In this document: piece after piece, positions 1 through 4,324 of the stretch
Numbering within the stretch: the first letter of the stretch is position 1
How the letters are laid out: every line of letters starts with the position of its first letter
Assembly: GCF_000242595.2 (NCBI RefSeq)
Contig: NC_017098.1
Coordinates: forward strand, 1-64,000
DNA length: 64,000 bases
Origin: Spirochaeta africana DSM 8902
GTDB taxonomy: Bacteria > Spirochaetota > Spirochaetia > DSM-27196 > DSM-8902
Direction of reading: 5' to 3'
Made by a program: the position numbers and the translations under genes
The notes under the pieces: model-generated
Seen by the model: only the letters and a program-made list of their open reading frames with translations
The model's database searches: none
What the model was told of the DNA's origin: nothing

Positions 1-1401
1 CCCTTCTGGGACGAGGTCATGAATCAGTTCAGTGCTGAGTACTCGCCCCAGGAGATACATATGTGGTTTGAGCGGATGCAGTATCACGACTCAACCGAAT
101 CGAGCATCGTCATTGCCGTGCCTTCCTCGTTTGTACAGGATCAAATCGAGCAACGCTATGCACGGGCAATCGAAGATCGCCTGCTGGAGATATCCGGCAG
201 CCCGATAAAGCTGGAGTTTCATGTACAGCGTGCTGCCAGTTCACCGCGGGCGCAGCGCAGCAGTGCACAGCTGGTACGAGAGGAACAGCAGGAGGCTTCT
301 GCAAGCCAGGAAAGCAGTCGGTCTGCACCGCGACTGAGTGTAACTACCGCAGTAAAACGACCGCACCCGAGTCTGAATCAGCGGTACACCTTCGATAACT
401 TTGTTATTGGTGAGAACAACAACTTTGCTGCCAATGCCGCTCTGGCAATCAGCAAGAATCCCGGTACCGCCTATAACCCGTGTCTGGTGTATGGCGGTGT
501 CGGCCTGGGCAAAACCCACCTGATTCAGTCAATCGGCAACACCGTCTACCAGGACATCGATAATGCCAAGATCATCTTTGTCTCGGCCGAGGAGTTTACC
601 AACGATTTTCTGAATGCCCTGCGCGAGAAACAGACTGCCCAGTTCAAAAACAAGTATCGCTATGCCGATGTACTGCTGATCGATGATATCCATTTTCTGC
701 AGGGAAAAGAGGAAACCCAGGAAGAACTGTTCCACACCTTTAATGCCCTGTACGAGGCCAATAAACAGATGGTATTTACCTGCGACCGGCCGGTATCCGA
801 GCTGCGCCAACTCAAGGATCGCCTGCGCAACCGATTTGAACGCGGCCTGAATGTGGACCTGAAGCCACCCTCGTTCGAGACCAGACTTGCCATCCTGCAA
901 AAGAAGCTGGAACAGTCCAACCGCAATATCCCCGAAAGCGTACTGAATCTGATCTGCAGCAACGTTACCACCAATGTCCGTGATCTGGAGAAAGCCCTGA
1001 CCCGGATCCTGGCCTATGCCGAACTGGTCGGCAAGGATATTACCGAAGAGGTTGCCCGCCAGCAGCTGAAGGATATCTTTGTTACCCATCACCAGGCCAG
1101 CATAAATATCGACTTTATCCAGCGAGCGGTAGCCGACTACTTCAATCTGACTACCAACGAGCTGAAATCAAAAAAACGGACTGCTGCCATTGCGTTTCCG
1201 CGACAGGTTGCCATGTATATTGCGCGGCAGATTACCGAACTCTCCACCACCGAGGTCGGGCTGGAATTCGGGGGGCGTGATCACACCACCGTGATGTATG
1301 CCTGTCAGAAGATCGAAAACAAAATGAAGAGTGACTCTACCATCGAACCGATGGTCAAACGGCTGATACGCGATATTCGCGAGAGCAATGCCAAGGGATA
1401 A
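1..1401 (+). CDS. dnaA: Chromosomal replication initiator DnaA (5' end outside window)
   Basis: DnaA binds DnaA boxes at the origin and melts it in its ATP form. The reading frame is open from base 1, and the residues before the first ATG at 19 (PFWDEV) match the usual start of DnaA domain I, so the true start lies upstream of the window and 19 is not the start. A variable domain II linker precedes the AAA+ domain. The Walker A motif GGVGLGKTHL is encoded at 493-522 and the Walker B LLIDDIHFL near 673. The C-terminal DNA-binding signature GGRDHTTVMYAC is near 1270-1305. It is followed by an origin-like region and dnaN. Confidence 0.97.
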   Translation, partial: PFWDEVMNQFSAEYSPQEIHMWFERMQYHDSTESSIVIAVPSSFVQDQIEQRYARAIEDRLLEISGSPIKLEFHVQRAASSPRAQRSSAQLVREEQQEASASQESSRSAPRLSVTTAVKRPHPSLNQRYTFDNFVIGENNNFAANAALAISKNPGTAYNPCLVYGGVGLGKTHLIQSIGNTVYQDIDNAKIIFVSAEEFTNDFLNALREKQTAQFKNKYRYADVLLIDDIHFLQGKEETQEELFHTFNALYEANKQMVFTCDRPVSELRQLKDRLRNRFERGLNVDLKPPSFETRLAILQKKLEQSNRNIPESVLNLICSNVTTNVRDLEKALTRILAYAELVGKDITEEVARQQLKDIFVTHHQASINIDFIQRAVADYFNLTTNELKSKKRTAAIAFPRQVAMYIARQITELSTTEVGLEFGGRDHTTVMYACQKIENKMKSDSTIEPMVKRLIRDIRESNAKG

Positions 1402-1632
1402 TCCCGGTCTGGAAAGACTGTGGATGAATACGGGATAATCCGGGATAACCCGACCCGGCGGTGGAAAGTGTGCAGAAATCCGCACAACCCCGCATGATTA
1501 TCCCCAGAAAAAAGTGCTGCTAAGGCACCACATACTATATACTTAGGCAGGTTACCCACATATCCGGAGTGCCTACTACTACTACTACTGTTCTTTATAT
1601 AATATAAGGGAAGTAGAAGAAGGAGCGAAAAC
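1402..1632. other. Candidate replication origin (oriC) between dnaA and dnaN
   Basis: This gap holds DnaA-box-like 9-mers one base from TTATCCACA: TGTGGATGA (1419-1427, reverse), TTATCCCCA (1498-1506) and TTACCCACA (1552-1560). GGGATAA heptamers also occur at 1395, 1432 and 1442. The last box is followed by a short G/C-containing spacer, five CTA triplets (1573-1587) and the AT-rich stretch TTCTTTATATAATATAA (1591-1607). On the minus strand the CTA run reads 3'-GAT-5' repeats, the DnaA-trio. The order box, spacer, trio, AT-rich DNA matches the unwinding element of B. subtilis oriC. Whether replication starts here is inference. Confidence 0.75.
1573..1607. repeat. DnaA-trio tract plus AT-rich unwinding element
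   Basis: Five perfect CTA triplets at 1573-1587 and one near-match CTG (1588-1590) run directly into a 17-base A/T-rich stretch. DnaA trios (3'-GAT-5') load DnaA onto single-stranded DNA next to the last DnaA box. The TATAAT at 1598-1603 could also be a -10 element for dnaN. Confidence 0.7.
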
Positions 1633-2736
1633 ATGAAGTTCACATGCGACAGAGACATCCTTATCAAGGAAATCACCACAGCCCAAGAAGTCATTTCATC
1701 ACGCAACGCATTGTCGATACTCTCCAACGTGCTGCTGCATGTCGAGAACAACACCCTCACGGTTCGTGCCACCGATCTGAAGGTCAGTTTTGAAACCAAA
1801 CTGCCGGTGGATGCTGCCGACGCCGGGGCTACTACGGTGTTCTGTGACAAGTTTCTGGGGATTCTTCGCTCCATGCCGGCCGGCACTGCAACCTTCGAAG
1901 ATCAGGGCAACGGCACCTTCTACATAAAGAATCGCGACGGCAGTATTGATTTCAAACTGAAAAGTATCGATGCCGAGAAATTCCCCGAGCTCAAGACGAT
2001 TGCCGATGATCACTACTTCAGCATCCCGCAGCGCGAGTTTATCGAGATGATATCGCAGACGGTGTTTGCGGTTTCGGATGATGAAACCCGCTACTTCATG
2101 AACGGGGTGTACATGGAGCACAGCGACGGGCAGCTGATCATGGTTGCAACCGATGGGCGACGCCTGTCGTACATCTCCTCTACCCAGCAGAATGAGGTGC
2201 CCGATTTTCCCGGGGTTATAATCCCGCCCAAGGTGCTGAATATGGTGCGCAAACTTGCCAGCGGCGAGGGGCAGTTTCTGATGGCGGTACACGAGAAAAA
2301 CATCTTTCTCCAGTTCGAGAATCTGCATCTTACCTCGACGTTGATAGACGGGCAGTTCCCCAATTATCGCCGGGTAATCCCCGAAAGCCAGGATCACTCG
2401 ATCATTGTGCAGTCTCGTGATTTCGAGGAGGCTATCAAGCGTGTCAGTCTGCTGGTAGAGAAATCTCATCGGATCTATATCGATATCAACGGGGATGTGC
2501 TGACGGTCCGCTCTGAGGAAAGCGAGTTCGGGGTGGCCAAAGAGACGATCCCGTGTGAGTATCAGGGGCCGGATACAACCCTTGCCCTGAATTACCGCTA
2601 TCTTGTTGATCCCCTGCGGGTAATCGACAGTGAACAGATCGAGATCCAGTATACTGCTCCCGGGAAGGCACTGACCCTGTACAGTGTACCGCATGATCGC
2701 TACAAGCATATTGTTATGCCGATGCAGCTTGACTGA
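1633..2736 (+). CDS. dnaN: DNA polymerase III beta sliding clamp
   Basis: The product of 367 residues is the ring-shaped processivity clamp that tethers DNA polymerase III to DNA. Length and sequence fit the family across all three clamp domains, including VATDGRRL near the middle and the usual C-terminal end MPMQLD. The start ATG is preceded by a good ribosome binding site (GAAGGAG). Its upstream region is the putative origin, so its promoter may overlap the AT-rich unwinding element. recF follows after 3 bases, with no clear ribosome binding site of its own, which suggests coupled translation. Confidence 0.97.
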   Translation: MKFTCDRDILIKEITTAQEVISSRNALSILSNVLLHVENNTLTVRATDLKVSFETKLPVDAADAGATTVFCDKFLGILRSMPAGTATFEDQGNGTFYIKNRDGSIDFKLKSIDAEKFPELKTIADDHYFSIPQREFIEMISQTVFAVSDDETRYFMNGVYMEHSDGQLIMVATDGRRLSYISSTQQNEVPDFPGVIIPPKVLNMVRKLASGEGQFLMAVHEKNIFLQFENLHLTSTLIDGQFPNYRRVIPESQDHSIIVQSRDFEEAIKRVSLLVEKSHRIYIDINGDVLTVRSEESEFGVAKETIPCEYQGPDTTLALNYRYLVDPLRVIDSEQIEIQYTAPGKALTLYSVPHDRYKHIVMPMQLD

Positions 2737-2739
2737 TGA

Positions 2740-3828
2740 ATGGGCTTTTCCAACCTCCGATTTTACCAGTTTCGTAACATAGCAAATACCACATTGCGGC
2801 TTGACAGCCGCAATGTGTGTTTTGTTGGCCGGAACGGGCAGGGAAAGACCAATGCCCTCGAGGCTATTTACCTGCTGTGCTATGGATCCAGCTTCCGCAC
2901 CCGGCAGGATGCGTTGCTGGTTCATCACGGCAGCAGCGAGATGGCGCTGGTTGGCACTGCCGAGGTAGATGAACGGACACTGGAACTTGATCTGCGGATC
3001 CAGAACAATCGCAAGCAGATCAGCGTAGACGGCAATCCGGTGCAGGATCGCAAGGAAATGGTCCACAACATCCCTTGCATCGTGTTTTGCCATGATGATA
3101 TCGAGTTCGTATCCGGTGCACCCGACCGGCGCCGCTGGTTTTTTAATCAAACCATGAGCATGGCCGAACCGCAGTACATTGATTACCTGCGCAGCTACAA
3201 CCGGATTCTGAAATCCCGCAATCAGACCTTGAAAGACGGGCGCCTGGATCTGCTGGATGTCTATGATTCACAGCTTGCCGAGACCGGTCTGATCATCCAG
3301 CAAAAACGTCGCCAGATTGTGCAGCAGTTCAACCTGAGCTTCCAGCAGCTGTTCAGGGAGATCAGTGAACTGCCGTACGAGATGACCATTGACTATCGTT
3401 GCAGCTGGGATGACGATTCAACCGGGACCTGGATTCTGCACGAATTGCGCCGTCGCCGTGACATGGACCTGCGACTGGGAACTACTACCAGTGGTCCGCA
3501 TCGGGACAAACTGGTGTTTGTGGCCAACGGGATGGATTTTACCACGGTTGCCAGTACGGGCCAGCTGCGCCTGTTGGGGCTTATTCTGCGGGTAGCGCAG
3601 GCCCGTTACCTGGCTGATATGGTGGGATTACGCCCGATATTGCTGCTGGATGATGTACTGCTGGAGCTTGATCCACAGCGGCGAAAAAGCTTCATGCGTT
3701 TTCTGCCGGCATATCTGCAGGCTTTTTATACCTTTTTGCCGGACGAGGAGTTTTCTCAGTACATCAGCGGTGATACACTGGAATACAGGGTACAGCATGG
3801 ACAATTCGAGCTATTCCAAGGCAGGTGA
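2740..3828 (+). CDS. recF: DNA replication and repair protein RecF
   Basis: RecF is an SMC/ABC-type ATPase that, with RecO and RecR, loads RecA at single-strand gaps. The 362-residue product carries Walker A GRNGQGKTN (residues 30-38), a SGPHRDK segment near residue 250 and Walker B LLLDDVLLELD near residue 301. Gene order dnaA-dnaN-recF is classical. The next gene starts inside its 3' end. Confidence 0.95.
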   Translation: MGFSNLRFYQFRNIANTTLRLDSRNVCFVGRNGQGKTNALEAIYLLCYGSSFRTRQDALLVHHGSSEMALVGTAEVDERTLELDLRIQNNRKQISVDGNPVQDRKEMVHNIPCIVFCHDDIEFVSGAPDRRRWFFNQTMSMAEPQYIDYLRSYNRILKSRNQTLKDGRLDLLDVYDSQLAETGLIIQQKRRQIVQQFNLSFQQLFREISELPYEMTIDYRCSWDDDSTGTWILHELRRRRDMDLRLGTTTSGPHRDKLVFVANGMDFTTVASTGQLRLLGLILRVAQARYLADMVGLRPILLLDDVLLELDPQRRKSFMRFLPAYLQAFYTFLPDEEFSQYISGDTLEYRVQHGQFELFQGR

Positions 3829-4324
3829 TCTCCTTGGCGGACTGATGGATCTGCTGGGTGCAGACGGGGGATCCGAGATAGCCCGTCTGTTTCAGACCTG
3901 GCGCAGCATCGTGGGTGATGACATTGCCTCTCACAGTGCGATAGAGGATATTCGCAACGGCACCGTGATTGTGGTGGTGGATCATCCTGCCTGGATGCAG
4001 CAAATCCAGTTCCGTCAGCAACACCTGTTGAAACGGATGCAGCGTGAATTCACCCAGCTGGAAATAAAGCGGATATTGTGTAAAATCGGCAGCCCGAAGA
4101 TCAAACCGCCCGTGTCTCCCAATCAGGAGAGCCCACAGAATCCTGCACCGCAGTCTCCGGCCGTTGAGCCAGGGGATCGGGAAGAAAAAGCAGCCCCATC
4201 GGGGGAATCAACCGGGCAGTCGGAAAACCCCCGGGAGCAGCATGCCGACAAGGAATCCTTTCTGGCATCGATGCAGCGGCTGAAAAGTACCCTGGAGTCG
4301 CAGGAACCCCGGGATCGTAGTTGA
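3797..4324 (+). CDS. dciA: DciA/DUF721-family replication protein
   Basis: The 175-residue protein has the DUF721/DciA core: W..IVGDDIA followed by an H-A-W-M-Q-Q-I-Q segment, in the first 95 residues. DciA proteins help load or operate the replicative helicase in bacteria lacking DnaC/DnaI loaders; this is family knowledge. The C-terminal third is rich in Pro, Glu, Gln and Ser and looks disordered. The chosen ATG at 3797 lies 32 bases inside recF and begins MDNSSYSKAGDLL, where homology starts; the frame is open further upstream but that part is recF shadow. Confidence 0.85.
   Translation: MDNSSYSKAGDLLGGLMDLLGADGGSEIARLFQTWRSIVGDDIASHSAIEDIRNGTVIVVVDHPAWMQQIQFRQQHLLKRMQREFTQLEIKRILCKIGSPKIKPPVSPNQESPQNPAPQSPAVEPGDREEKAAPSGESTGQSENPREQHADKESFLASMQRLKSTLESQEPRDRS

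Follow-up and report, generated by a model that had tools for sequence, protein, structure and literature searches.

In Bacillus subtilis, incC with its basal unwinding system (BUS) lies between dnaA and dnaN, and the BUS boxes are DnaA-box 6 and 7. As described in several studies, box-bound DnaA extends as a filament onto the strand that carries the DnaA-trios and captures two bases of each trio (PMC8287927, PMC10721633, PMC6669920, PMC8235120, PMC10316083). The B. subtilis filament pairs six trios with seven protomers; the DnaA residues contacting the trios have been named, and only trios 1-3 are called essential in that species (PMC10721633). The sequence rules for a BUS, as set out in PMC8287927, are a box with at most two mismatches to TTATCCACA, a first trio separated from the box by a spacer of at most 16 bp (peak 10-13), and at least three trios 3'-NAN-5' (consensus 3'-GAT-5') on the strand opposite to the TTATCCACA reading of the box; a second BUS box with at most four mismatches is optional. 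Of the 2070 species considered in the same paper, 1755 yielded candidate BUS sequences, and a search for trios is a routine part of Ori-Finder 2022 (PMC10225481).

The 231-bp dnaA-dnaN gap of Spirochaeta africana DSM 8902 resembles the B. subtilis incC/BUS in its location between the two genes, in having two boxes on the same side, and in the AT-rich region past the trios. Both have six trios (PMC10721633 for B. subtilis) as well as a GC-rich motif, which is GGCC in B. subtilis (PMC8235120) and GTGC in S. africana. The B. subtilis trios are described as imperfect at the third and fourth position, whereas S. africana has five perfect trios followed by CTG as the sixth. Moreover, the B. subtilis lobe is described with seven boxes, compared with three with at most one mismatch, plus weaker ones, in S. 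africana. With oriC2 of Helicobacter pylori the locus shares YTR trios behind a GC-rich tract, which are unwound by DnaA in H. pylori; the oriC2 array differs in that it is described as five perfect and two imperfect repeats with only divergent boxes beside them (PMC8235120). The eTrio of Thermotoga maritima consists of three TAG repeats that are essential there for unwinding and single-strand binding, but these stand apart from the nearest box, and the DnaA that binds them is recruited from boxes farther off (PMC10316083), whereas the S. africana trios start 12 bp from a box. In the literature searched, no discussion of the DnaA-trio in spirochaetes, Treponema or Borrelia was found; the supplement of PMC8287927 or DoriC may list this origin.

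The dnaA-dnaN gap of S. africana

The window analysed here comprises bases 1-64,000 of the one-contig genome (3,285,855 bp) of S. africana. The dnaA ATG lies 27 bp upstream of window base 1 and so falls at the far end of the linearised contig; gyrB points away from dnaA, with an interval of ~80 bp between the two. The gene order is gyrB/dnaA/dnaN/recF-like/dciA/rnpA, with SMC_N/AAA matches in the recF-like gene. Window positions 3650-4324, ~2 kb from the trios, encode a protein with a DciA domain (helicase loader family, PF05258, E 2.3e-19). The features of the region are collected in Table 1.

Table 1. Features of the probable S. africana origin region (window coordinates unless stated otherwise; mismatches are to the DnaA-box consensus)
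Feature	Position	Strand	Basis
gyrB-dnaA intergenic	L002 19881-19973, before window base 1		
dnaA (initiator)	1..1401	+	Pfam DnaA_N, Bac_DnaA, Bac_DnaA_C
dnaA-dnaN gap, 231 bp, probable oriC	1402..1632	.	sequence, DnaA boxes
DnaA box TCATCCACA, 1 mismatch	1419..1427	-	box scan
Weak box-like pair TTATCCCGT / TTATCCCGG, spaced 10 bp apart, each with 3 mismatches	1430..1448	-	box scan
DnaA box TTATCCCCA, 1 mismatch	1498..1506	+	box scan
Trio-proximal DnaA box TTACCCACA, 1 mismatch, BUS box 1	1552..1560	+	sequence, box scan
Weak second box ATATCCGGA, 3 mismatches, BUS box 2	1560..1568	+	box scan
GC-rich clamp GTGC	1569..1572	+	sequence
Six DnaA-trios CTA CTA CTA CTA CTA CTG	1573..1590	+	sequence
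AT-rich block TTCTTTATATAATATAA	1591..1607	.	sequence
dnaN (sliding clamp)	1633..2736	+	ORF, Pfam

A preliminary description of this DNA had noted a DnaA-like box, a spacer, five CTA triplets and an AT-rich block and had likened them to the B. subtilis DnaA-trio. Direct reading of the sequence reproduces the order and coordinates of these four elements exactly; missing from that description were the second box-like site, the GC clamp and the CTG that forms a sixth trio. Box TTACCCACA has a single mismatch to TTATCCACA and is separated from the first CTA by the 12 bp of TATCCGGAGTGC (1561-1572). The five CTA (1573-1587) and the CTG (1588-1590) read as five 3'-GAT-5' and one 3'-GAC-5' on the opposite strand, and nine consecutive NTN triplets are found on the plus strand. 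The optional second box is represented by ATATCCGGA (three mismatches), which overlaps box 1 by one base and has the same offset in relatives. Every published BUS sequence element is thus present in the correct order, strand and spacing, which supports the DnaA-trio reading. Judged by its sequence, the gap holds a textbook BUS, and we consider the element to be the unwinding site of the chromosomal origin with a probability of about 0.9. The earlier identification stands, as all published elements are present and the same module recurs at the same place in most relatives.

By nearest-neighbour energies, no 30-mer in the first 4 kb is weaker than the one beginning at 1577, which spans the trios and the AT-rich block; across the window, 63 of 63,970 positions are weaker.

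The loose form of the published rule (a box, 0-16 bp, at least three NTN) is passed by 3247 of 20,000 shuffles. The rule alone is therefore weak evidence and was rejected as sufficient proof of a BUS. A box with at most two mismatches followed by at least three CTA within 16 bp appeared in 1 of 20,000 shuffles, and (CTA)5 in none of 20,000 dinucleotide shuffles of the 231-bp gap. Since (CTA)5 moreover occurs only once on both strands of the 3,285,855-bp genome, a chance array was rejected. The search for box and CTA together covered sampled stretches and the window (864 kb, or ~804 kb without 60 kb of overlap). Among these ~804 kb, a box at 12 bp from at least three CTA was found at this site only, and one other site carries six middle-T triplets, none of them CTA.

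The initiator itself was compared with B. subtilis DnaA (8btg), to which it aligns with an E-value of 2.5e-117. Of the trio-contacting residues named in PMC10721633, four are identical (Asn187->Asn210, Lys222->Lys245, Glu223->Glu246, and Glu228->Glu251) and three are similar (Ile190->Leu213, Ile193->Leu216, and Arg202->Lys225), and Asn196, which touches the outward-facing base in B. subtilis, corresponds to Lys in S. africana. The cognate DnaA is thus predicted to keep the trio-reading pocket.

Conservation in Spirochaetia

Gaps in relatives were located via DnaN, with matches in 103 of 118 genomes, plus 80 named loci from a genome scan. From 170 loci examined, 3 in which dnaN was not found and 11 without upstream dnaA were dropped, and merging identical gaps left 114. 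A further 40 loci were added, of which 20 belong to the class; L222 was too short and was dropped, so that 19 remained and the total came to 133 class gaps. These 133 gaps hold 296 DnaA boxes (at most one mismatch) versus 12.2 expected. When the last DnaA box alone serves as the anchor (111 of 114 gaps), CTA peaks at a spacer of 12 and then every three bases. By a criterion using trios 1-3, the module is present in 82 of the 114 gaps and absent in 32. The equivalent of BUS box 1 stands at a fixed distance from the trios in relatives, and the GC clamp follows the pattern G-N-[C/G]-C across the class. The nearest named relative, Alkalispirochaeta alkalica (L165), has six trios at the same place. 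In the preliminary description, absence of the trio from close relatives had been named as grounds for refutation; as the same module occupies the same position in most of them, this objection does not apply. In other classes of the phylum, dnaA precedes dnaN in 14 of 20 loci (the other 6 are without dnaA there), and a looser scan of these 14 picked up trio-like runs in 10 and no such run in the remaining 4.

To read the trios position by position, a weight matrix of the 23 bases preceding the first trio was scanned over the 133 gaps while the trios themselves were ignored; 120 gaps scored above the threshold (anchored) and 13 remained unanchored. The matrix was trained on the 82 gaps picked using trios 1-3, so the counts for these trios lean upward; trios 4-6 were not used. 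At trios 1-6, the middle T, which corresponds to the conserved A of the trio strand, is found in 111, 107, 101, 82, 105, and 111 of the 120 anchored gaps, compared with a background of ~32% at random sites in the same gaps. Reading the same tracts out of frame yields 4-15 of 120 when shifted by one base and 23-49 of 120 when shifted by two. CTA occurs at trio 6 in 59 of 120 gaps and at trio 7 in none. Because trio 6 is kept and trio 7 is never CTA, the tract is six trios long in most of the class.

The repeat had also been called unusually pure. Five CTA are indeed at the upper end, but 10 of the 120 anchored gaps, S. africana included, begin with at least five CTA (two of them with six), and the five-fold repeat was therefore rejected as exceptional. 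Fewer than four middle-T trios are found in 14 of the 120. Decayed or altered trios were seen in L050, L051, L052, L062, L063, L070, and L072, which form one related family (f7); the tract of L070, for example, reads CTA CCA CTA AAA CGA CTA. They offer a natural collection in which to study what takes the place of the canonical tract.

All six middle T are kept in 68 of the 120 gaps, and only the fourth is lost in 21. Single losses elsewhere number seven at the third trio, two at the fifth, and none at the first, second, or sixth. Among the 106 rows with at least four middle-T trios, losses at trios 1-6 amount to 4, 2, 8, 28, 3, and 1, and the middle T of trio 4 is replaced by C, G, and A in 10, 9, and 9 rows, respectively. 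As the replacement letters are about equally frequent, this looks like relaxed constraint on trio 4 and not like a changed preference. For a DnaA tree, 6 of the 120 rows were dropped because their DnaA was too short; on the remaining 114 rows the fewest changes at trios 1-6 are 6, 8, 13, 19, 11, and 8, and 2, 2, 8, 12, 3, and 1 on the 100 rows with at least four middle-T trios. On a smaller DnaN tree (55 rows), trio 4 does not stand out, with 5 changes against 6 at trio 3. The lead of trio 4 over trio 3 is therefore tree-dependent and modest. Taken over the anchored gaps, the tract in Spirochaetia is usually six trios long, with the fourth the most tolerant, and these data fit the B. subtilis count of six.

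A further reading is tentative, and we give it somewhat less than even odds: the Spirochaetia tract may be a ruler of six, in which selection keeps trios 5 and 6 no less strongly than trios 1 and 2, with an abrupt end behind trio 6 and freedom to vary in the middle, chiefly at trio 4 and next at trio 3. The literature examined holds no statement of a class-wide fixed six or of a loosest fourth trio, which does not prove that there is none.

Origin position and alternative explanations

GC skew was calculated for sampled 20-kb stretches genome-wide and as a contiguous cumulative curve from -200 to +284 kb. All 7 stretches at 0.14-1.44 Mb have positive skew and all 11 from 1.76 Mb to the contig end have negative skew, with values near zero in between at 1.59-1.69 Mb, so that the arms switch sign near base 1 and near 1.6-1.7 Mb. 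The preliminary description had named a skew switch elsewhere as evidence against the site; the arms do switch near base 1, but the cumulative minimum lies at ~29.5 kb and not at the gap. A shallower local low is found near 2 kb; the two lows differ by ~290 counts compared with a fall of ~8000, and the curve runs upward from just past 2 kb, with 14-24 kb running opposite. The purine-skew minimum is at -83. The skew is hence consistent with an origin at the gap, give or take ~30 kb, and skew alone does not fix it there. Between 14000 and 24000 of the window, GC skew runs against the leading-strand sign although long ORFs are mostly on the plus strand, and this reversal shifts the formal minimum to ~29.5 kb. 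The segment might be inverted or acquired.

A box scan of the last 300 bp of the contig (the short gyrB-dnaA interval and, for the most part, gyrB itself) found no DnaA box with at most one mismatch; when two mismatches are allowed, there is one box at -240. Among relatives, 59 of 76 have at least one box (at most one mismatch) within 300 bp upstream of dnaA, with 145 boxes versus 9.2 expected. The S. africana origin may thus have lost an upstream lobe, to judge from these scans. Both the missing upstream boxes and the skew minimum at ~29.5 kb could be taken to mean that the trios are a genuine relic and that the active origin lies elsewhere, for example near that minimum. Since 2-14 kb already has positive skew, with ~14-24 kb alone opposing it, the purine-skew minimum is at -83, and the trio array is intact instead of decayed, we regard such a relic as extremely improbable.

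It is very unlikely, although slightly less so, that the tract and the AT-rich block are chiefly a dnaN promoter or leader at which DnaA regulates transcription and does not melt the origin. A TATAAT is present at 1598-1603, and the first trio is located 60 bp before the dnaN ATG (median 58 in 82 relatives). However, a promoter scan of 1380-1660 returned one site only, at 1410-1439, and nothing promoter-like at the tract or the AT-rich block; the distance to the dnaN start varies between 44 and 180 bp in 82 gaps, whereas the box-to-trio spacing is fixed; and six in-register trios would have no explanation. The lack of a scan site and the fixed spacing led us to reject an element that is promoter only, while a dual role in promotion and unwinding is possible. 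A neutral trinucleotide microsatellite, arisen by replication slippage and found in the dnaA-dnaN gap by chance, would suit the five pure units in succession and the differing run length among relatives. It would not account for the 12-bp distance to the DnaA box, for a tract that usually stops after six units, for the middle T that is kept while the outer letters vary (TTA, CTG), or for the sole occurrence of (CTA)5 in the genome. The class-wide fixed register and length largely refute slippage, which is scarcely credible as the source of the tract.

Proposed mechanism

For the preferred reading, an unwinding site of the BUS type, the elements with their spacing and conservation, together with the DnaA residues that match, are direct observations, whereas binding, strand choice, melting, and helicase loading would follow by homology. 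DnaA would bind BUS box 1, aided by the weak box 2, and then extend across the 4-bp GC clamp to reach the lower strand, with each pocket of the AAA+ filament taking up one 3'-GAT-5' trio. Given six trios, probably seven DnaA protomers would be engaged, as in the B. subtilis structure. The filament would peel off the lower strand, and opening would proceed into the AT-rich block towards dnaN, where the helicase could be loaded.

Biological significance

This kind of element is already known and ordinary; the six-trio length with a tolerant fourth trio is the testable detail. The analysis narrows the probable site at which a spirochaete chromosome melts to ~50 bases, and most of Spirochaetia share the layout known from B. 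subtilis (box, weak box, GC clamp, six trios, and AT block). The position-wise counts represent a natural-variation test of the cryo-EM model with six trios and seven protomers, and, going by them, trio 4 should tolerate mutation best. If the tract is indeed a ruler of six, distal trios would matter in nature even though the essential set in B. subtilis is trios 1-3, and evolution would be preserving a DnaA filament of fixed length, seven protomers long, that tolerates one missed contact near its centre.
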